In this document: piece by piece, positions 2,312 through 16,987 of the stretch
Position numbering within the stretch: position 1 is the stretch's first letter
Layout: every line of letters starts with the position of its first letter
From: a virus
Direction: 5' to 3' (one strand)
DNA: 21,434 nucleotides
Virus record (IMG/VR): IMGVR_UViG_3300041809_000338
Coordinates: 1 to 21,434 of that record
Notes under the pieces: generated by a model
Told to the model about the DNA's origin: nothing
The model's input: the letters and a program-made list of their open reading frames with translations, nothing else
Database searches by the model: none
Made by a program: the position numbers and the translations under genes

Positions 2312-3135
2312 CCGACGACGAAACAAATCAGGGCGACGCGCCGGAAGTGCCGATGGCAGACGACGAGCTTGTGGAAAGGCTGGCCAAGTTCTCGCCAGCT
2401 GAGGCTTGCAACTTGCGGGTGCTTTACCACAAATATCTTCAAGGCGAGACGCAAAAGTGGCAGGAGGAAAAGCTGATTGCCTGCGGCATCATCGGCAGAA
2501 GGTCGGACTCCCAAATGGAGATGCCGCCAGAATGTTCACAGACCCAGATGGCGGCTCACCTGACGGAAAATTACGGAAAGCCAGTCGGCAAGGAATACTT
2601 CACGGCACAGGTCGCGTCTTGGATAAAAACGGAAGGCGCACCGGCTCCGGGCGCAAACCGGAAACTCAACACGGCTGATTTCATCAAGTGGTTTATGGCA
2701 AACAAGTGGGAAGGCGGAGCGACAAACGGCGGCGGGGATTCATCAATCGGGGCCGGCGCAAAGGCGAAACAGGAATTGTATGTTGTCCAGTTGCGCCGCG
2801 CTGAACGTGCGGACAAGGAAGAACAGCGCAAGTTTGAATCGCGATGGATGATAACCGACGATCACGATTTCTGGCTGGAGGGTGTTGTGACGCGCGCCCG
2901 GCAGTCGGTTCTTTCGATGCTCAAGCGGGTTGCGGAACTGGCAAAACAGGCGTCGAAGGAATCCGGCGCGGACGAAGCCATGACTGAAAAACTGATTGCC
3001 GAATTGCGCCCGAAACTGGACGCAGACTTTGAATCATGGCAGTCCGACTTCACGAAACAGGTTGAAGAACTGGATGTTGCGGCGCACGAATCTAGCGAAA
3101 CGAAAAAGGCAGAATTGAAGGTGAAGAAGTTGTGA
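2308..3135 (+). CDS. Probable terminase small subunit (DNA-recognition), 275 aa
   Basis: It sits directly upstream of the large terminase and is coupled to it. Residues about 76-130 have the layout of a winged helix-turn-helix of the Nu1 type: an SQTQMAAHLTENYG helix pair, a KEYFTAQVASWIKTEGAPAP segment, then NTADFIKWFMANK. A Gly-rich linker (residues 137-150) leads to a long charged helical C-terminal region (about 155-275), suited to oligomerisation and contact with the large subunit. At 275 aa it is longer than lambda Nu1 (181 aa). The start has a usable AGGA box (TTAGGAAGAAATG). Expected role: binding the packaging initiation site and recruiting the motor. The call rests on position plus the HTH pattern. 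Confidence 0.7.
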   Translation: MTDDETNQGDAPEVPMADDELVERLAKFSPAEACNLRVLYHKYLQGETQKWQEEKLIACGIIGRRSDSQMEMPPECSQTQMAAHLTENYGKPVGKEYFTAQVASWIKTEGAPAPGANRKLNTADFIKWFMANKWEGGATNGGGDSSIGAGAKAKQELYVVQLRRAERADKEEQRKFESRWMITDDHDFWLEGVVTRARQSVLSMLKRVAELAKQASKESGADEAMTEKLIAELRPKLDADFESWQSDFTKQVEELDVAAHESSETKKAELKVKKL

Positions 3136-5180
3136 TGCCATACCACCCATCCTCCGCCCTCCTCCGCGCCAAGAAAGCCATTAACCAAAAGGTTTTCAGG
3201 GGTGAGATTCATGAGAACCACGCCGGGAATGCCCACTTGAAAGAATTTCTGGCGTGCCATTTTCATCGGAAGATTATGCGTGATGCAAAACTTTCGACCA
3301 CGCGGCGGCAGGGGTTGAGGGCTGCAAACCAAATAGGCAAAACGCGCATTGGCGAGTGCATAATGATTTATCGCATGGAACACGACCCGGCGCACACGGT
3401 TGTTTATGACGAGACGATTGAAAAGAGCCGCGACCACATGAGCAACCGTTTTGGGCCGCTGCTGAAATCAATCCCGTCATTCGGTAAAATTTTCAAAGAC
3501 ATCATGGCGAACAATCGCTTTGACGTGACGACGCAGGACATCCGGCTGCCGGGCATGATATTCCGGGCGCGGCCTCTGAATGAGCAATGGACGCAATCCA
3601 TCACCGTGCGTTACGGGCTGATTTCAGACGCGGCATTGTGCGACCCGCGACAAGTGCGCCGGGCATTCGTTCGCTCGCGCCAGCATGAGAAAGATGATTT
3701 TTGGTTCGTTGAATCGCAGGGCGATGCGATGAATGGTCAGACCGGAGGCGGGTTCAAAGAGTTCATGGCGACAACGAACGACGCCAAACTTTGGGTCAGG
3801 TGTCCGCTTTGCCAGACCCGCCAGAGATTTATTTTCCACCACGAACGAACACAGGATACGCAAATTGTCGCGCCGCTGTCAGTGGCATCGCTTGATCGTG
3901 ATGCGTGGATTTCTCACAACAAACCAATCTTGCTTTCCGAAGAACGGAGGCACGCTGGATTCAAAGTTGAGGGCGAGTTGAAAAAGGATGATGGCAGCAT
4001 AAACGAACAGCAAATAATGCGGGCAACGGTTTATGAATGTCCGCACTGTGGCGGGATATGGCGTGATGACGGGCTGTTCGGTGAGACGCGGCGTTACCTT
4101 GACCGAGAAGCCGGGATGGATGAAAACTGGATTGCCACGCGCCCGGATGCGTTGCCGGGCTATCTCGGCTATTCGCTGCCAGTTTGGATTAACCCGATTA
4201 TTTCATGGGGCAGCGCGATGCTGTTTTTCAGGCAGGCAATGGAGGCGAAGAAAATGGGAAACCTGTCAAACCTTCAGGAGTTCCGAACGAAATGGGAAGG
4301 CGAAGATTGGGATTGTTCGGGAATTGGCTTCCGCGACCAAACCCCCGCTCCCGGCAGTTATGACCCGTTGCAATTGAAGGAATTGATTGCCAATGCTCAT
4401 TCGCTGGACATGACGGTAGATTGTCAAGAAGATGGCGATCACAAGCAGAAAACCGGCGTTTCAGTCACTGGCTGGTTTTGGGTGATAGTCAGAGTTTGGG
4501 GCAAGGATTCAAACAGCAAACAAACCACACGATTCTTTTGCAAGTCGTGGGACTATTGGATTTCGGTTCAAAAGTATTGGAACATTCCGAATGACAGGGT
4601 AATGATTGATTGCCTGTTTGACCCGGTTGGCGTTCGCAATAAGGCGGTGGAACAGCGGAAGATTATCAAACTGAACAAACCTCATCCCATTTTCAAGACG
4701 CTTGAAAAAACCGTGACGTGGAAGTTATTGCAGGCGGTGACGCGCCAGCAAAATTGGAAGCACAAGGATGGCAAGGAGCGGCCTTGGAGTGAGGAACAAC
4801 GAGACGGCGGATATGTCATCAATCCCAAAACAGGACGGCCAGAATGGATCACTGTGCCCAAAATTCTTTTCAACAAAAACCCGATCCGCCAGCAGGTGGA
4901 CGCGCTTTATACGAGGTCGCCGGGACTGCCTCAATTTGAATATCTTGACCGGGCGCACTTGAAGATGATGGATGGTTCGCCGGACGAGTTGACCTTGCGC
5001 GAAGAAACCGGCAAGCGGACTTATGAAAGCCAGATGGCCGCGCAAAATTACAACATGGAAAAGCATAAATATGTTGAAGAACATTCTGACGATCATTACT
5101 ATTGGTGCGAGCAGGCACAGGTGGTAAGGGCCGGAATGGACGGCCTTTTGGGGCTTGACTCGGTGTTTGTGGCAGAATGA
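3135..5180 (+). CDS. Terminase large subunit, lambda GpA family (681 aa from ATG)
   Basis: This is the packaging ATPase-nuclease of the GpA type. A Walker A-like loop AANQIGKT lies at about residues 64-71, followed by strand VVYDETIEKSRDHMSNRF. Two CxxC pairs (WVRCPLC near 221-227 and YECPHCGG near 301-308) match the Cys pairs of this family. GYLGYSLPVWINPIISWG and LQEFRTKWEGEDW match conserved GpA segments near the domain junction. MTVDCQEDGD near 427-436 and MIDCLFDP near 491-498 fit acidic positions of the C-terminal nuclease. The usual Walker B DE is not obvious: the equivalent segment reads GLISDAALCD. Length is close to lambda gpA (641 aa). Start choice: GTG at 3132 is immediately followed by ATG at 3135, and either is coupled to the small subunit stop. 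Confidence 0.9.
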   Translation: MPYHPSSALLRAKKAINQKVFRGEIHENHAGNAHLKEFLACHFHRKIMRDAKLSTTRRQGLRAANQIGKTRIGECIMIYRMEHDPAHTVVYDETIEKSRDHMSNRFGPLLKSIPSFGKIFKDIMANNRFDVTTQDIRLPGMIFRARPLNEQWTQSITVRYGLISDAALCDPRQVRRAFVRSRQHEKDDFWFVESQGDAMNGQTGGGFKEFMATTNDAKLWVRCPLCQTRQRFIFHHERTQDTQIVAPLSVASLDRDAWISHNKPILLSEERRHAGFKVEGELKKDDGSINEQQIMRATVYECPHCGGIWRDDGLFGETRRYLDREAGMDENWIATRPDALPGYLGYSLPVWINPIISWGSAMLFFRQAMEAKKMGNLSNLQEFRTKWEGEDWDCSGIGFRDQTPAPGSYDPLQLKELIANAHSLDMTVDCQEDGDHKQKTGVSVTGWFWVIVRVWGKDSNSKQTTRFFCKSWDYWISVQKYWNIPNDRVMIDCLFDPVGVRNKAVEQRKIIKLNKPHPIFKTLEKTVTWKLLQAVTRQQNWKHKDGKERPWSEEQRDGGYVINPKTGRPEWITVPKILFNKNPIRQQVDALYTRSPGLPQFEYLDRAHLKMMDGSPDELTLREETGKRTYESQMAAQNYNMEKHKYVEEHSDDHYYWCEQAQVVRAGMDGLLGLDSVFVAE

Positions 5181-5873: not shown

Positions 5874-6089
5874 ATGAACAAAACCATTTCCATCACACCA
5901 CAGGTCATGCTGGCATTGGTCGGCGGGGCGACGTTGCGGGCGGTGAATGTGCCGGCGGCGCGCGGGGGGAAGATTGTGAAGTCCGGCTACGATGCGGCGC
6001 GGCAGGAGTTCTGGGTGGAGGTGAGTTCGGATTCGTTTGAAAACCCGGAAATCCGGTTGCCGCAGACTTTTATTTTGGATGTTCAATGA
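5874..6089 (+). CDS. Small hypothetical head-module protein (71 aa)
   Basis: It has one of the few canonical ribosome-binding sites in the window: GGAGG, 10 nt before ATG 5874. Its stop overlaps the portal start (ATGA at 6086). It occupies the position of lambda gpW, between terminase and portal. However, its sequence looks beta-type (GYDAARQEFWVEVSSDSF) rather than the small helical gpW fold, so I do not call it gpW. It is a conserved-looking small head-module protein of unknown role. Confidence 0.65.
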   Translation: MNKTISITPQVMLALVGGATLRAVNVPAARGGKIVKSGYDAARQEFWVEVSSDSFENPEIRLPQTFILDVQ

Positions 6090-8029
6090 AATTTTTACAG
6101 CCTTCAACTTGGTTTGGCCGCAAGGCCTCGCAAAGCGTTGTCGAGGAAATCCAGACGCTTCCCAACGTCAGGCCGGAATCGGTAGCTTTCGCCAATTCTC
6201 AAATCCATAAATTTGCCCGGATGAAAGAAGTGGTTGGCGACCTGATGGAGTCCTCCGCCAGGTTGCAACGTTCTTATGATGCCGGGGTTTCAACAGCTTT
6301 CAACGCTGATTTCAAGGGGACTTATGGCACGGCCAACACGGAGATTTTTAACGACTTTTACAAGGTCTGGGCGCGGGCGCGCACGCTGGCAAAGGACACC
6401 CCGCAAGGCAAGGCAATTCTCCGAACCCACAGAAACAACATTGTCGGACATGACCCGTTCAAATTGACGATGAAGGTCGGGGCCACGGTGGACAAGCCGC
6501 ATCCGAAATCCGGCGTGACGGTGAAAGTATTTGAGGCAGAGAATGATACAAACCAGTTGATAGAAGCGGAATGGAGACAGCAGGGCTTGCCGGAAAACTT
6601 CACCGTGCGCGGGACAATATCATCTTTGGAAGCCTATAACCAGATTGTGAATGAGGCAAAAACGGTTGGAAGCATTCTAATCCGACTGTGGGACAATGTG
6701 GACAATGAATCTGGTTTTGCGATTGACCTTTTGGAGAGTGACCGTTTGCAGCCTAATTACATGGCCAAGTCTCAACCCGGAGACAAATTCGGAGCAGGAA
6801 ACCAAATTCGCGGCAGCATTGAATACGACAAGATGGGCAAACCTCTGGCGTATTGGATTCTGACGCGGCATCCCGGAGAGTATTACATCGGTCAAAACTA
6901 TCCCGGTGGCGCTGCAAAGGACTTCGTTAGGGAACAGGTTCCCGCGAAGGACATCATTCATTTCAACAACCTGCGCGACCGGGCGGAACAGGAAATCGGA
7001 TTCACGGAACTGGACGCCTGCATACAGGCAATTTGGCGGTTGTTCCAATATCAGAAGGCGCTTACATACGCTTCAATTTCGTCCTGCATGAAGCCGTTTT
7101 GGATCAAGAAAAACTATCCGACCGGAATGCAATACTCGCCGGATGATTTTAGTCGCATGGTGGAGGGTTTTTCAAAGGGATCAGGACTGCCGGGCGAATT
7201 GGGAAATCCAGTCTTGGCGCAGCAGGGAATCAAGCAGCGCCAAAGCACGGAGGTTCCAGGCTCGACTCTGGAATTAGAATACGGCATGGAGTTGATGCAG
7301 ACCGACCCCAAATTCCCAATTGAGGCCGCGCATGAATTCAGGATGGACAACGACAAGGAAATCGCGGCGGCGGCGGCGGTTTCGTATGCTGATTTGACGG
7401 GGGATTTTCAATCGCTCGGCTACATTGCGGCCCAGATGTCACAGCGTCCGTCCCGTGACGAGGCGATGGTTTTTCAGGAACACATGATAATGGTTGTGGT
7501 ATCCCGCATTTTCAAAAGATGGCTGCGGGCGGCGTGCATGAATGGAGTCTTGGACGGGCTGGCATCACGACAGAAGGAAATCATTCGGGCGGCTCATTTT
7601 CGCGGAAAGCGGTTCCCGTTCACCGACGAATTGCGTGAAGTGCAGGCGCTTGTTTTGAAGCTGGACGCCAAACTTATTTCTCCGCAACGCGCACAGGACA
7701 TCATGCCGGATGGCGATGACATTGAAAACGTCATTGCCGAATGGTCGCAATGGAATGAGCGTTGCGAGGCCTATGGAATCCCGTTGATGGATGCTCCAAC
7801 GGCAGTCACCGAAAAAGAGATGCAGGCCGAACCGAACGAGAACGGCGATTTGCCGACAGCGCAAGATGGTGGAGATGCCGCGCAACCGCCGGCCACAACC
7901 AAGCCGTCAAAAGCAAAGGGCAGCGTGACGGCAAAGGGTCAAAAGCCGGGGACACAAGGCCGGTCAAGCCATCAGCGGAACTGGAACAGCGCGGCGCTGA
8001 CGCGGCAACTGCTTTCGGAAACAATCTAA
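6086..8029 (+). CDS. Phage portal protein, lambda gpB family (647 aa)
   Basis: This is the portal vertex subunit, which forms the dodecameric DNA channel and docks the terminase. The N-terminal region has the family pattern of an R-rich loading segment (RARTLAKDTPQGKAILRTHR) followed by NNIVGHDPFKLTMKVG. Conserved-looking core segments follow: QIVNEAKTVGSILIRLWD, KDIIHFNNLRDRAEQEIGFT, and, near residues 433-450, SYADLTGDFQSLGYIAAQM, equivalent to the YxxLTxDxSxxNYSS-type segment of lambda portals. The C-terminal 60 residues are a low-complexity, Lys/Gln/Gly-rich tail. Length is above lambda gpB (533 aa), mostly because of that tail. It follows the 71-aa gene with an ATGA overlap. Confidence 0.9.
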   Translation: MKFLQPSTWFGRKASQSVVEEIQTLPNVRPESVAFANSQIHKFARMKEVVGDLMESSARLQRSYDAGVSTAFNADFKGTYGTANTEIFNDFYKVWARARTLAKDTPQGKAILRTHRNNIVGHDPFKLTMKVGATVDKPHPKSGVTVKVFEAENDTNQLIEAEWRQQGLPENFTVRGTISSLEAYNQIVNEAKTVGSILIRLWDNVDNESGFAIDLLESDRLQPNYMAKSQPGDKFGAGNQIRGSIEYDKMGKPLAYWILTRHPGEYYIGQNYPGGAAKDFVREQVPAKDIIHFNNLRDRAEQEIGFTELDACIQAIWRLFQYQKALTYASISSCMKPFWIKKNYPTGMQYSPDDFSRMVEGFSKGSGLPGELGNPVLAQQGIKQRQSTEVPGSTLELEYGMELMQTDPKFPIEAAHEFRMDNDKEIAAAAAVSYADLTGDFQSLGYIAAQMSQRPSRDEAMVFQEHMIMVVVSRIFKRWLRAACMNGVLDGLASRQKEIIRAAHFRGKRFPFTDELREVQALVLKLDAKLISPQRAQDIMPDGDDIENVIAEWSQWNERCEAYGIPLMDAPTAVTEKEMQAEPNENGDLPTAQDGGDAAQPPATTKPSKAKGSVTAKGQKPGTQGRSSHQRNWNSAALTRQLLSETI

Positions 8030-8497: not shown

Positions 8498-11281
8498 ATG
8501 GCTGACAAACCAGCAGAAACCGCCGAAGCAAAAGAAAAAACGCCCGCCGTTGAAACGGCAGCGTCCACCAAGCCCGCAGAGTCAAATCGCACCACGCCGG
8601 TTGAGATGGATCGGGACAATGCAAATCTACTTTACCGTTTCACCGAGGTCACGCGCAGCGACATCGTTGGAGAAGACACTTTCCAGATCGCCGCCGCCTC
8701 CGAATTTCCGGGGAAACAAATCGCGGATGAAGTCCATGCGCGGGTTTGCGGGGTAAAAGAGGGCGAGCCTTACACGGAAATTTTGAGTCACAATGAAGGC
8801 GATGCCGACCTTTCATTTTTGAACAGCGGACGCGCGGCGTTTTTGGACGAACATACGCCCACGCGCCATCTTGGAAACATCAAAAAGGCCACACTTTCAA
8901 CGGACAAGGTGACGCGGATTCTGGCGCAATGCGATGAGGTGACAAAGCTTTCAAAAATCCGAAAGAAACAATTGAGCAAAAAAAGCCGGATGAATGTTTC
9001 GATGGGCTACATTCACACGCGATATCTCGGCTCGCAAACACTGGACGATGGAACTGTCGGCCATCGTTTTGCGTGGCAGGGGCGAGAAGTTTCCAGCGTG
9101 GCCGATCCACTGGATACAACCGTCGGGCTTGGTCGCGCGGCGGCGACGGACAAGGTGGCCTGCTTCAACTGCGGAAAGCAAATGAAAAGCTCGGACATGA
9201 TCAAATCGGATGACGCGCTGTATTGCTCGCAGGATTGTGTGGATGCCGAAACGCCGGCGGATGACACAGAGCGTTCGGTCGGATTGAAAATGTTCCGTGC
9301 GAAGAAGGATTCAAAAGAATTTCGGATTTCTCACGCTGAACTCCGACAAAAAACCGTCCGCGCCCTAGACAGCGACAAACGGTTCAAATACAAACGCGAT
9401 AACGGCGACCAAGTTTCAGACTTTTATCATCACGACAACCATCAGGTTTCCGCTGACGGCACAGATTTCCAAGCCATCGTTTCTTCACCGGCATGGCGCG
9501 ATGGCAGCAAGCTTTACGCGGTGGATTTCACCTACGACGGCAGCGATGTGACGCTTGGCGAAGCCACTCATGTTGAACCCAAAACCACCTTGGAAGCGGT
9601 CGAGCGGGGACTGCCGTGCGACCTGAAACAATTCCGTTCGGTTGACTTGCCGGAATTATCAGAAGCGGATAAAACCGCAATCGTTGCACCAAACATTTTA
9701 ACACGCAAAATTATGGCCGATAAAACACCGGAACAAATCGCGCAGGAAGCTATCGCTGCGAAACCCGAACTCGTCATTGACAGTCTCGAAACCCCGCACG
9801 TCAAGCGGGCGCTTGCCGAGCGAGGCTATCGCACCAAAATTGAATTGGATGCTGCGGCCAAGACCCGCGATGAGAAAATCGCCGGGCGCAACAAGGAAAT
9901 CCTCGCGCTGGAAACTGAATTTCGTTCCGACGCCGGCGACCTCATCAACCACCGCAAATTGCCCGATGGCCGCAAGGAGCCGTTTTACGTTCGTGACGCG
10001 ATTCATCTGGCCGCGATGGAAGCCTGCGCCTCCGATGATTCCAAGCCGGACACTGAAATCCGCCAGATTTTCCGCAGCAAGGTGGACGACTTGAAGCGCG
10101 GGGCCGCTTCGGAGGAAAACATCAAACGCGCCGTGGACGCCGCCGAAATGGGCTTGGCTGGCCGTTGTGACGATGTTTTCGCCGTCATCAAACGGACTCT
10201 TGCCGAATCTCACAGCAAAGGCACCCAATCCCGCAGCCTCATGCCCGCCGGTGCCGAGCTTGAATACTCGGACGAAATCCGCAACCAGTTCAAATCAATG
10301 CCGGGTTGCGCGCACGTCGCCGACCTCGGCGGATTCATGTCGCCCCCGAAACAGGGCCGCAAATGGGATGGAACCATTTTGGAGCGCAAGGCCCGCAGTG
10401 GTTCACGCATGAAGCGCGATGCGCTGGCCTCTGATTTTGTAACCGTCGGCGCGATGATTGCGCCGGAGTTCCGGCCTTACATCGAATTGCTCCGCAACTC
10501 CACCGTTCTGGACAAGCTCGGTTGCACCTACATCGGCGGATGCAACGGCGAACAGGTTTTCCCGCGCCAAGAGGCCGCGACGGTTGCGCAGTCGGTTGCC
10601 GAAGGTTCGCAATTGAATCCTTACGACCAGACGCTCGGCCAAATCAAGATGACGCCCAAGCGCGTTGGTTCCCGACAGTATTACAGCCGGCTGGCAGTCA
10701 TCCAGGCGGTTCCGGGCTGGGAAGCAATGGTCTGGAACGATCACGCGATGGTGTTGGCGATCTATCAGGATGAAATGGGAATCAATGGAACCGGCGCGGC
10801 TGACCAGCCCACCGGCATCCTGAATCAGCCCGGCATCAATCAGTTGCTTTTCGGAGGCACGCCGACTTACAACAACATCCTCAATTTCCGCACGCAAATC
10901 CGCAAGTTCAACGTGCCGGGCCAACTGGCATTTACGACCACCAGCGTTGGTCAGGGTCGTCTGGCTTACCTGCCGGCGGCCTTGAATGGCTCGACAGTCA
11001 TCACGCAGGGCGAGTTGGACGCCATCTGGAAGGGCGACGAGGAAAACGGCGAAATGCTCGGCTGCAAGGCCGTGGCGAGCCAGCAGATTCCCGGCGACAT
11101 TCTGCTTGCGGGCGTGTTCTCGGAATTGCTCATGGCAAGCTGGGGCGGAATCTTCACCACGCTTGACAATTACACCCGCGCCGACCGGGACGAGGTGGCG
11201 ATCACGTTCAACACCTATTTTGACATCGCCGTGCGGCACGCGCAGGCGTTCACCCGCTCGTTGGATACGGTCAACCAATAA
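8498..11281 (+). CDS. Fused prohead protease (S78) - zinc-knuckle insert - HK97-type major capsid protein (927 aa)
   Basis: A single uninterrupted ORF encodes what most phages split into two or three genes. Residues about 45-215 resemble an HK97-type S78 prohead protease, with a candidate catalytic His in AAFLDEH (H119) and Ser in MNVSMGYIH (S168). An insert with C222-x2-C225 and C243-x3-C247 looks like a zinc knuckle. Residues 405-580 are a charged helical region suited to a scaffold or delta domain. The last 350 or so residues are HK97-fold capsid-like (GAMIAPEFRPYIELLRNSTV, RQEAATVAQSVAEGSQ, GINGTGAADQPTGILNQPGI, then a VAITFNTYFDIAVRHAQAF end). An internal ATG at 9713 begins MADKTPEQ, echoing the ORF's own MADKPAET. 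Maturation presumably uses self-cleavage. No Shine-Dalgarno sequence precedes the start. Confidence 0.88.
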   Translation: MADKPAETAEAKEKTPAVETAASTKPAESNRTTPVEMDRDNANLLYRFTEVTRSDIVGEDTFQIAAASEFPGKQIADEVHARVCGVKEGEPYTEILSHNEGDADLSFLNSGRAAFLDEHTPTRHLGNIKKATLSTDKVTRILAQCDEVTKLSKIRKKQLSKKSRMNVSMGYIHTRYLGSQTLDDGTVGHRFAWQGREVSSVADPLDTTVGLGRAAATDKVACFNCGKQMKSSDMIKSDDALYCSQDCVDAETPADDTERSVGLKMFRAKKDSKEFRISHAELRQKTVRALDSDKRFKYKRDNGDQVSDFYHHDNHQVSADGTDFQAIVSSPAWRDGSKLYAVDFTYDGSDVTLGEATHVEPKTTLEAVERGLPCDLKQFRSVDLPELSEADKTAIVAPNILTRKIMADKTPEQIAQEAIAAKPELVIDSLETPHVKRALAERGYRTKIELDAAAKTRDEKIAGRNKEILALETEFRSDAGDLINHRKLPDGRKEPFYVRDAIHLAAMEACASDDSKPDTEIRQIFRSKVDDLKRGAASEENIKRAVDAAEMGLAGRCDDVFAVIKRTLAESHSKGTQSRSLMPAGAELEYSDEIRNQFKSMPGCAHVADLGGFMSPPKQGRKWDGTILERKARSGSRMKRDALASDFVTVGAMIAPEFRPYIELLRNSTVLDKLGCTYIGGCNGEQVFPRQEAATVAQSVAEGSQLNPYDQTLGQIKMTPKRVGSRQYYSRLAVIQAVPGWEAMVWNDHAMVLAIYQDEMGINGTGAADQPTGILNQPGINQLLFGGTPTYNNILNFRTQIRKFNVPGQLAFTTTSVGQGRLAYLPAALNGSTVITQGELDAIWKGDEENGEMLGCKAVASQQIPGDILLAGVFSELLMASWGGIFTTLDNYTRADRDEVAITFNTYFDIAVRHAQAFTRSLDTVNQ

Positions 11282-11318: not shown

Positions 11319-11936
11319 ATGAAATTCACCAAATACCTCATCGTGATGCTGTCGGTCGCCGCCGTTTGCATCAGCACCGCCCGCGCCCAAAATGACATAT
11401 TCAACACGGTTCGCACGGCCAACATCGGGTCGGTTTCCGCCATCGGAATTGGCGGTTTGCCGGCCACGAACGGTCCAGTGGACATTTTGGGATATAACGG
11501 GAGGGGTGTTGTTCTGCTGACCACATTCACCAACGGCACTGGCGGCGGGAATCTTTACGCGGCGGTTGAGACATCGCCGGACACTACGAATTGGACGCAG
11601 CTTGCCAATTATGCCGTGATTACATCGCCAACGTCCATTTCCTACACCAACACAGGATACGCAGGCGCCAACTTGGTTGTGGCGGACAACTTCCTGCTTC
11701 CAGGAACGATTACCACGCCAACGGCATACAGTGCGGGATTTAACACCCCATATCTGGCGCCGCTGATGTTCACAAATACCGGCACCGTGAATGTCTCCAA
11801 GAATGGGAATTACGCCATCGGCATCAATCTAACCGACAGTGCGCGTTACATCCACGTTGTCTGGACTGGCTCTGCCACGAACGGGACAACTGTGGTGAAT
11901 GCTGTGTTGCAGGGCGGCCGATTTTTGGCACCGTAA
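11319..11936 (+). CDS. Predicted exported, virion-associated candidate protein with Sec signal peptide (205 aa)
   Basis: ATG 11319 begins a textbook Sec signal: MKFTK, hydrophobic core YLIVMLSVAAVCIS, and cleavage site ARA before QND (after about residue 23). The mature part is beta-rich and full of Asn, Thr and Gly. It contains VDILGYNGRGVVLLT, AAVETSPDTTNWTQL and a RYIHVVWTGSATNG segment. This layout resembles small proteins often encoded just after the capsid gene in HK97-like phages (possible decoration proteins), which normally lack a signal peptide; the resemblance is from memory. The leader is A-rich with no Shine-Dalgarno sequence. An in-frame extension upstream (from 10986) would overlap the capsid gene and hide the signal, so it is rejected. 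Confidence 0.75.
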   Translation: MKFTKYLIVMLSVAAVCISTARAQNDIFNTVRTANIGSVSAIGIGGLPATNGPVDILGYNGRGVVLLTTFTNGTGGGNLYAAVETSPDTTNWTQLANYAVITSPTSISYTNTGYAGANLVVADNFLLPGTITTPTAYSAGFNTPYLAPLMFTNTGTVNVSKNGNYAIGINLTDSARYIHVVWTGSATNGTTVVNAVLQGGRFLAP

Positions 11937-16051: not shown

Positions 16052-16507
16052 ATGAAACGATTTTTACACATTTTGACGCTGGCGGTCTTTGCGCTTTTTG
16101 CGTTTGGATTGCGGGCGCAGACCGTTGGGAGTTCTTCCCTTATCACCGGCACGAATTATTTTCCAATCCTAATTTCACCGGGGATTTACCAAACCAACCA
16201 GATTTATCAGGCTGGTGCATACAAGCCGGTTACGCTCGGCAACATCGCCAGCACGAACGAAACGGTGACTGCATATTATATCGTGAATCCAACCAACGGA
16301 CTTGTCCCCGTGCCGAATTTGCCGGGCTGGTTCTTCACTGGAAACGGTTACACCAATTCATTTGCCAGCGGAACGAACGGCGGATCATATTCTTTTAATT
16401 TCAACGGGACTGGCCAAACCGTGCTTTGCCCCGCACAGCTAATGATTGCCCTAACCGGCACGAACCTAAACGGCAGCCCGGTTACAAATTCCGCATACGT
16501 CCCTTAA
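16052..16507 (+). CDS. Second predicted exported protein with Sec signal peptide (151 aa)
   Basis: The N terminus is a clear Sec signal: MKRF, hydrophobic LHILTLAVFALFAFG, and LRA before QTVG (cleavage after about residue 22). The mature part is beta-type and rich in Asn, Thr, Gly and Tyr (for example NGYTNSFASGTNGGSYSFNF). This is the same composition as the 11319 protein, and both have an RAQ junction. No family is recognised. It sits just before the tail tube candidate, so it is either a virion protein routed through the envelope or a secreted or surface protein expressed late. Both readings are inference. Confidence 0.7.
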   Translation: MKRFLHILTLAVFALFAFGLRAQTVGSSSLITGTNYFPILISPGIYQTNQIYQAGAYKPVTLGNIASTNETVTAYYIVNPTNGLVPVPNLPGWFFTGNGYTNSFASGTNGGSYSFNFNGTGQTVLCPAQLMIALTGTNLNGSPVTNSAYVP

Positions 16508-16519
16508 CAAAACAAAATT

Positions 16520-16987
16520 ATGCCCGGCCCATCACCCTTCAACATTTCGGAACAGCAAGTAGGAGCAGTGGCTTACTTGTATGGAATCACCAACTCTGGA
16601 ACGGCGGTCACGATTGCGGGATTGGATTCATTTGAATTTGATTCGGACGAACTCACCCTGACATGGGATGAAAAGGCGAACAAGGATACGACCGGAAACA
16701 TCCAGAACTACACGCAAACCAATTTCCGGTATGAGCGGTCGCTGAAAATTTATCCGAGCGGCGAGACTCGTGCGGCGGCGGCGACTGTGGCCGGCGAAGC
16801 CATCACGCTGTTCTCGGTTGTCATCGCCAATTACAAGGTGGCCGCTTTCAACGGGACGTGGCGCGTGAAATCCGGCACGAAGATCAATTTGAAGATGGAC
16901 GACAACGCCTCGATTGATTTCAGCATGGAGCGGTTCGTCAACGCGGCGCAGAATGCGGCATTGACGGGTGCGGCGATTGTCGGTTAA
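16520..16987 (+). CDS. Candidate major tail tube protein (155 aa)
   Basis: This beta-rich protein has tail-tube-like features. SFEFDSDELTLTWDEKAN near residues 37-54 and a C-terminal GTWRVKSGTKINLKMDDNASIDFSMERF segment resemble the paired sheets of tail tube subunits. An Ala-rich end follows. It is directly followed by the strongest terminator in the window, as expected for a gene needed in high amounts. It precedes a pre-tape-measure gene and the tape measure gene, the normal order. The leader is A-rich without a Shine-Dalgarno sequence. No domain search was possible, so the call is by pattern and position. Confidence 0.6.
   Translation: MPGPSPFNISEQQVGAVAYLYGITNSGTAVTIAGLDSFEFDSDELTLTWDEKANKDTTGNIQNYTQTNFRYERSLKIYPSGETRAAAATVAGEAITLFSVVIANYKVAAFNGTWRVKSGTKINLKMDDNASIDFSMERFVNAAQNAALTGAAIVG

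Follow-up and report, generated by a model that had tools for sequence, protein, structure and literature searches.

The window, that is, the whole 21,434-nucleotide stretch that was analysed (IMG/VR record IMGVR_UViG_3300041809_000338), carries a terminase gene, a portal gene and a long fused head gene, and the portal gene precedes the fused gene as in other fusion phages (Table 1). The original prediction had placed an S78-type protease and an HK97 capsid in a single 927-aa polypeptide, on which domain hits and profile matches agree. It had also claimed that a separate capsid gene is absent, and the window ORFs that were scanned include no second one, the record being only a 21.4-kb fragment, so another may sit elsewhere. 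Two other genes within the head/tail operon, 11319-11936 and 16052-16507, encode proteins with Sec-type signal peptides at their N-termini (MKFTKYLIVMLSVAAVCISTARAQ... and MKRFLHILTLAVFALFAFGLRAQ...). The first of them adjoins the capsid gene directly downstream and has a match to PHROG 5707, a family of unknown function, and the same arrangement is found in the related contig L222 (6937-7659).

Table 1. Position of the fused head gene, its parts and its neighbours in the window.
Feature	Position (nt)	Strand	Basis or remark
Terminase large subunit (GpA type), upstream of fused gene	3132..5180	+	GpA_ATPase 1.3e-11
Portal protein gene (lambda family), upstream of fused gene	6086..8029	+	Phage_portal_2, 1e-42
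Fused gene, long form	8498..11281	+	927 aa, open, ATG start
Order of the long form: N-extension, S78-type protease, Cys4, swappable domain, scaffold/delta, capsid	8498..11281	+	
S78-type prohead protease domain, residues 86-215	8753..9142	+	PHROG 4523, NF045541, hhalign, alignments
Protease residues H119, S168, E197	8852-8854, 8999-9001, 9086-9088	+	Invariant in alignments
Cys4 motif C222-x2-C225-x17-C243-x3-C247, zinc-ribbon/knuckle-like	9161..9238	+	Four Cys invariant, eight records
Domain of unknown function, ~125 aa, residues 260-385	9275..9652	+	Most conserved protein part, exchanged as module
AT-rich initiation-like signal before M406, AT 0.75	9693..9712	+	Resembles start region of gene 16520
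Proposed nested short form from M406, scaffold/delta and capsid, 522 aa	9713..11281	+	Met-Ala conservation, AT-rich signal, family-wide ribosome-binding site
Scaffold/delta-like segment, residues 406-640	9713..10417	+	Least conserved part
HK97-type capsid part, residues 641-927	10418..11278	+	Pfam, PDB 8gta, hhalign 99.9%

The N-terminal part of the protein matches PHROG 4523, "major head and protease protein", at residues 87-284 (E 8.8e-13) and NCBIfam NF045541, "prohead protease/major capsid protein fusion protein", at residues 84-270 (E 1.6e-12). The protein misses the curated cut-off of NF045541 (46.8 vs 525 bits), and the window gene is the same sort of fusion, outside this narrow model. 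Pfam Peptidase_S78 (PF04586), searched directly with the window protein, gives no match, and the Pfam search yields the capsid only; the same model does match S-LBS1 (2.2e-7) and Murka (2.6e-6), both named relatives. By hhalign, the N-terminus of the window family aligns with the profiles of these S78-positive fusions over residues 34-217 (99.3%, E 2.5e-20) and 41-217 (97.8%, E 1.3e-12). The S78 assignment proposed for the N-terminus, not recovered by the direct Pfam search, is supported indirectly by PHROG 4523, NF045541 and hhalign via S78-positive homologues. His119, Ser168 and Glu197 are unchanged throughout the alignment of the window family with named phages. We take the conserved His and Ser to be active-site residues, from their catalytic role in HK97 gp4. 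AlphaFold models of residues 1-405 (6 sequences) and 406-927 (5 sequences) reached mean pLDDT values of only 43 and 35, too low for a fold search.

The C-terminal part matches Pfam Phage_capsid (PF05065) at residues 653-919 (E 1e-14, 55.1 bits against a cut-off of 24.2), and the chain of PDB 8gta, from Dinoroseobacter phage R4C, aligns to window residues 651-917. The R4C ORF has 629 aa, and the capsid chain modelled in the cryo-EM virion has 268 residues, ORF positions 362-629; the shell contains 415 copies of it (PMC10276861). Since the modelled virion chain is only the C-terminal 268 of 629 residues, the R4C precursor evidently undergoes cutting, at a site that is approximate because the deposit may leave disordered residues unmodelled. 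From the alignment of the R4C chain, the mature capsid chain of the window protein probably begins at about residues 636-651. The scaffold/delta segment before it has 25-32% identity to the relatives L004 and L006 and is predicted, with low confidence, to be largely helical.

The fusion had been presented as unusual, which is not supported in view of dozens of named phages, hundreds of contigs and a named NCBI family: a protease-capsid fusion in one frame is a known and very common architecture. A tblastn search of phage records gave 55 relatives, and in those inspected the fused gene immediately follows the portal gene. Relatives of the named fusions occur on at least 114 bacterial contigs, chiefly of Proteobacteria but also of Verrucomicrobia, Fibrobacter, Nitrospirales and others, and on at least 579 viral contigs; fused protease-capsid genes are found in prophages of many bacterial phyla. 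It is extremely improbable that an error of assembly or annotation merged a protease gene and a capsid gene into this ORF: related loci do include split protease/capsid pairs, but the identical fused frame in the independently assembled L002, L004, L006, L031 and L222, as well as in many isolates, refutes this. The fusions of NF045541 and of PHROG 4523 and 617 (Dinoroseobacter phage R4C, Synechococcus S-CBS3, Vibrio VP882, Pseudomonas PPpW-3) have in common with the window the order terminase-portal-fusion, an S78-type protease followed by an HK97 capsid in one ORF, and a Met after the protease. The window lineage differs from NF045541-type fusions in being about 200-300 aa longer, its protease and scaffold being separated by the Cys4 motif and a swappable domain. 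Less ordinary than the fusion itself are the proposed nested start, seen across the fusion family, and the conserved Cys4 with its exchangeable domain in this lineage.

Salmonella phage Gifsy-2 has, like the window, protease, scaffold and capsid in a single tripartite gene, with a protease that is ClpP-like. In lambda C/Nu3, an internal in-frame start yields the scaffold part without the protease; the lambda capsid gene is separate, whereas the nested product proposed for the window includes the capsid. The single gene of Gifsy-2 is attributed to Effantin et al. 2010 in a passage of PMC8538268, and Paracoccus prophages also have a single gene for a ClpP-like protease, scaffold and capsid (PMC6536676). 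Gene 5 of Pseudomonas phage MD8 unites protease, scaffold and capsid as the window gene does, its protease being ClpP-like and not S78, and a nested start is absent from the passages on gene 5 in that account (PMC8508860). The same paper states that protease and scaffold come from one gene in lambda and P2. HK97 gp4/gp5 resemble the window gene in having an S78 protease and a delta-domain capsid precursor cleaved to the mature capsid (PMC8508860); they are encoded by two separate genes in HK97 and by one in the window.

The cysteines C222, C225, C243 and C247 lie just past the protease exactly as first described. A Cys4 had been called unexpected there, which agrees with its occurrence at that place only in the window lineage among 84 non-redundant fusions. 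Its extent had been underestimated, the lineage-specific insert covering about residues 216-385 and not 222-247 only. All four Cys are kept in 6/6 aligned records and in two further ones, eight in all, with a variable spacer between the pairs; the second knuckle is CxxC in L004, L014, L221 and L222 and CxxxC in the window, L002, L006 and L031. Matches of the motif to zinc-finger families were sub-threshold only (LIM, Ecl1, DUF7564 and MYM finger), and the Cys4 is zinc-ribbon-like, not assigned to a zinc-finger family, with putative binding of zinc. At the equivalent point in its linker after the protease, L073, a Geobacteraceae prophage, has another kind of cysteine cluster, CETCGNDPCSC.

The domain at residues 260-385 matches no Pfam or PHROG family. 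Its core (277-370) has 93% amino acid identity between the window and L006, with 44% identity at fourfold sites and 45% amino acid identity in the capsid, while the siblings L006 and L031 are only 59% identical in the 260-385 domain and 84-95% identical over most other regions. Judged by these identities, the domain is under strong amino acid constraint, with synonymous sites near saturation, yet it is swapped as a module. Past the motif, the protein of the window lineage runs on for 714 residues, vs at most 514 in other fusions, with about 200 additional residues separating protease from scaffold. Since the insert is upstream of M406, it would be confined to the long form; it marks a site in head genes at which phages insert and exchange entire domains, expected in the protease-bearing form only. 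Some candidate matches were rejected: MT835503, the best named-phage match to the Cys4 and insert, lies within bacterial enzyme genes and is due to chance, Bacillus tail-lysin matches to the same region (E 0.07) were not credited, and PDB antibody matches to the 260-385 domain are chance. The bacterial genome scan gave no close relative of the window protein. In a sample of 388 genomes sharing the phylum of a Verrucomicrobiaceae genome and 80 sharing that of a Fibrobacter genome, fusions match the protease and capsid parts, with no insert-spanning match among those listed; the match of G240 in the bacterial sample runs to profile position 272.

A tentative reading, which we hold to be possible but rather doubtful, is that the functional novelty lies in the Cys4 together with the 260-385 domain, as either a zinc-dependent regulator or targeter of the protease or a cargo or anti-host domain released from the prohead by cleavage. 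The conservation of the Cys4 in eight records fits such a function, as does a strongly constrained domain exchanged among close siblings and present in the long form only; against it, the insert has no family match and the structure model is of low confidence.

Met406 stands at nt 9713, and the DNA upstream of it, 'attttaacacgcaaaatt', is similar to that at the start at 16520, 'cttaacaaaacaaaatt'. True starts of the window phage have an upstream AT content of 0.58 vs 0.46 (p 1.2e-4), with no Shine-Dalgarno (SD) signal at its gene starts (p 0.38), and the SD test at M406 is also negative. By upstream AT content M406 takes rank 1 of the 20 internal ATGs in its gene. The Met is present at the equivalent position in 7/7 relatives checked, as Met-Ala in 6/7. 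In seven genes, M406 and its equivalents take ranks 1, 1, 2, 1, 1, 1 and 2 among internal ATGs, and the seven codons before them are AT-richer than synonymous draws with p values of 0.015, 0.074, 0.121, 0.006, 0.009, 0.002 and 0.026; AT-richness is a weak signal, and two of the seven genes miss p 0.1 alone or the first rank. The in-frame internal start signal that marks a nested gene of the lambda C/Nu3 kind is found here in statistical form, and M406 probably begins a 522-aa protease-free scaffold-capsid protein.

Across the fusion family, 84/84 non-redundant loci have an in-frame ATG no more than 75 codons past the protease motif, usually where the scaffold segment begins; the window's ATGs within those 75 codons are inside the Cys4 insert, and M406 is farther downstream. 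An SD energy under -4 is found at 48% of linker ATGs, vs 11-19% in later parts of the genes. The mean SD energy at linker ATGs is -5.54, vs -3.29 at random linker codons, a value reached by 0/500 draws. In the synonymous-codon shuffle test (n=83), -5.56 was observed against a shuffle mean of -4.71, with 0/200 shuffles as strong; where a linker held several ATGs, the one with the strongest SD was used, with identical selection for the shuffles. The K/E-rich composition of the linker alone is, by this shuffling, insufficient as the source of the shared SD. Capsid-internal ATGs in the 83 loci have weaker SD than their own synonymous shuffles (100/100 shuffles stronger), and internal starts appear to be avoided within the capsid part; all these shuffle counts are not probabilities, and the related sequences are non-independent, which overstates significance. 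Cyanophage-type members have a weak SD or have it at a different Met. In split relatives, the protease stop is followed by AGGAGA or AGGAGGT and by the capsid ATG 13-14 bases past the stop, a position equal to that of the linker Met in the fusions.

These split pairs, with a capsid start at the linker position, make it plausible that a former gene pair left behind the linker Met together with its ribosome-binding site, in which case only the full-length polyprotein would be made, with a protease on every subunit and a whole shell that processes itself. The single ORF agrees with this, and the truncated R4C virion chain fits self-cleavage alone. We nevertheless consider it unlikely: across 83 diverse fusions the signal exceeds that of synonymous shuffles, while at other internal ATGs it is depleted, results that a decaying relic would not give, and Met and signal persist though the scaffold/linker otherwise evolves fast.

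The preferred reading, which we regard as likely, is that the tripartite head gene (S78-type protease, scaffold/delta and HK97-fold capsid) encodes two nested proteins. Initiation at 8498 would give the long form, which carries the protease into the prohead, and translation from M406 would give a protease-free scaffold-capsid chain that makes up the bulk of the shell, so that a few long chains would supply the protease and many short ones would form the shell, in a ratio that is presumed. After assembly, the protease would cut shell subunits of both forms near residues 636-651, removing the scaffold and its own domain, and the remaining capsid protein would be about 31 kDa in size. The zinc-ribbon-like Cys4 and the swappable domain of the long form could help the protease to fold or to take its place, or serve as cargo delivered with the prohead. 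The original prediction had set self-cleavage of the whole shell against production of separate capsid chains; these alternatives look reconcilable, both being probable from the nested start signal and from an R4C shell made of the C-terminal ~270 residues.

With a nested start, the stoichiometry problem of one protease per subunit would vanish. No treatment of how fusion phages avoid this problem, and no account of a nested start in protease-capsid fusions, was found in the open-licence literature, and a conserved nested start, if true, is a simple and testable answer; usual annotation would then overlook a main head protein. We consider it somewhat more likely than not that fusion genes of tailed phages are generally nested, with the window long form as a minor carrier of the zinc-ribbon-like motif and exchangeable domain, and the fusion would then set the protease dose via translation.

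Two further observations concern relatives of the window phage. L015 and L018 (CRP-811, S-CBS3) have a long additional domain N-terminal of the protease, which shows that this side also accepts add-ons. In the closest relative (IMGVR_UViG_3300032722_000020, 61,263 bases), the fused gene spans the contig ends, the end of L002 and the start of L003, which overlap at residues 519-727, and this overlap suggests a genome of about 60 kb with terminal redundancy or permutation.
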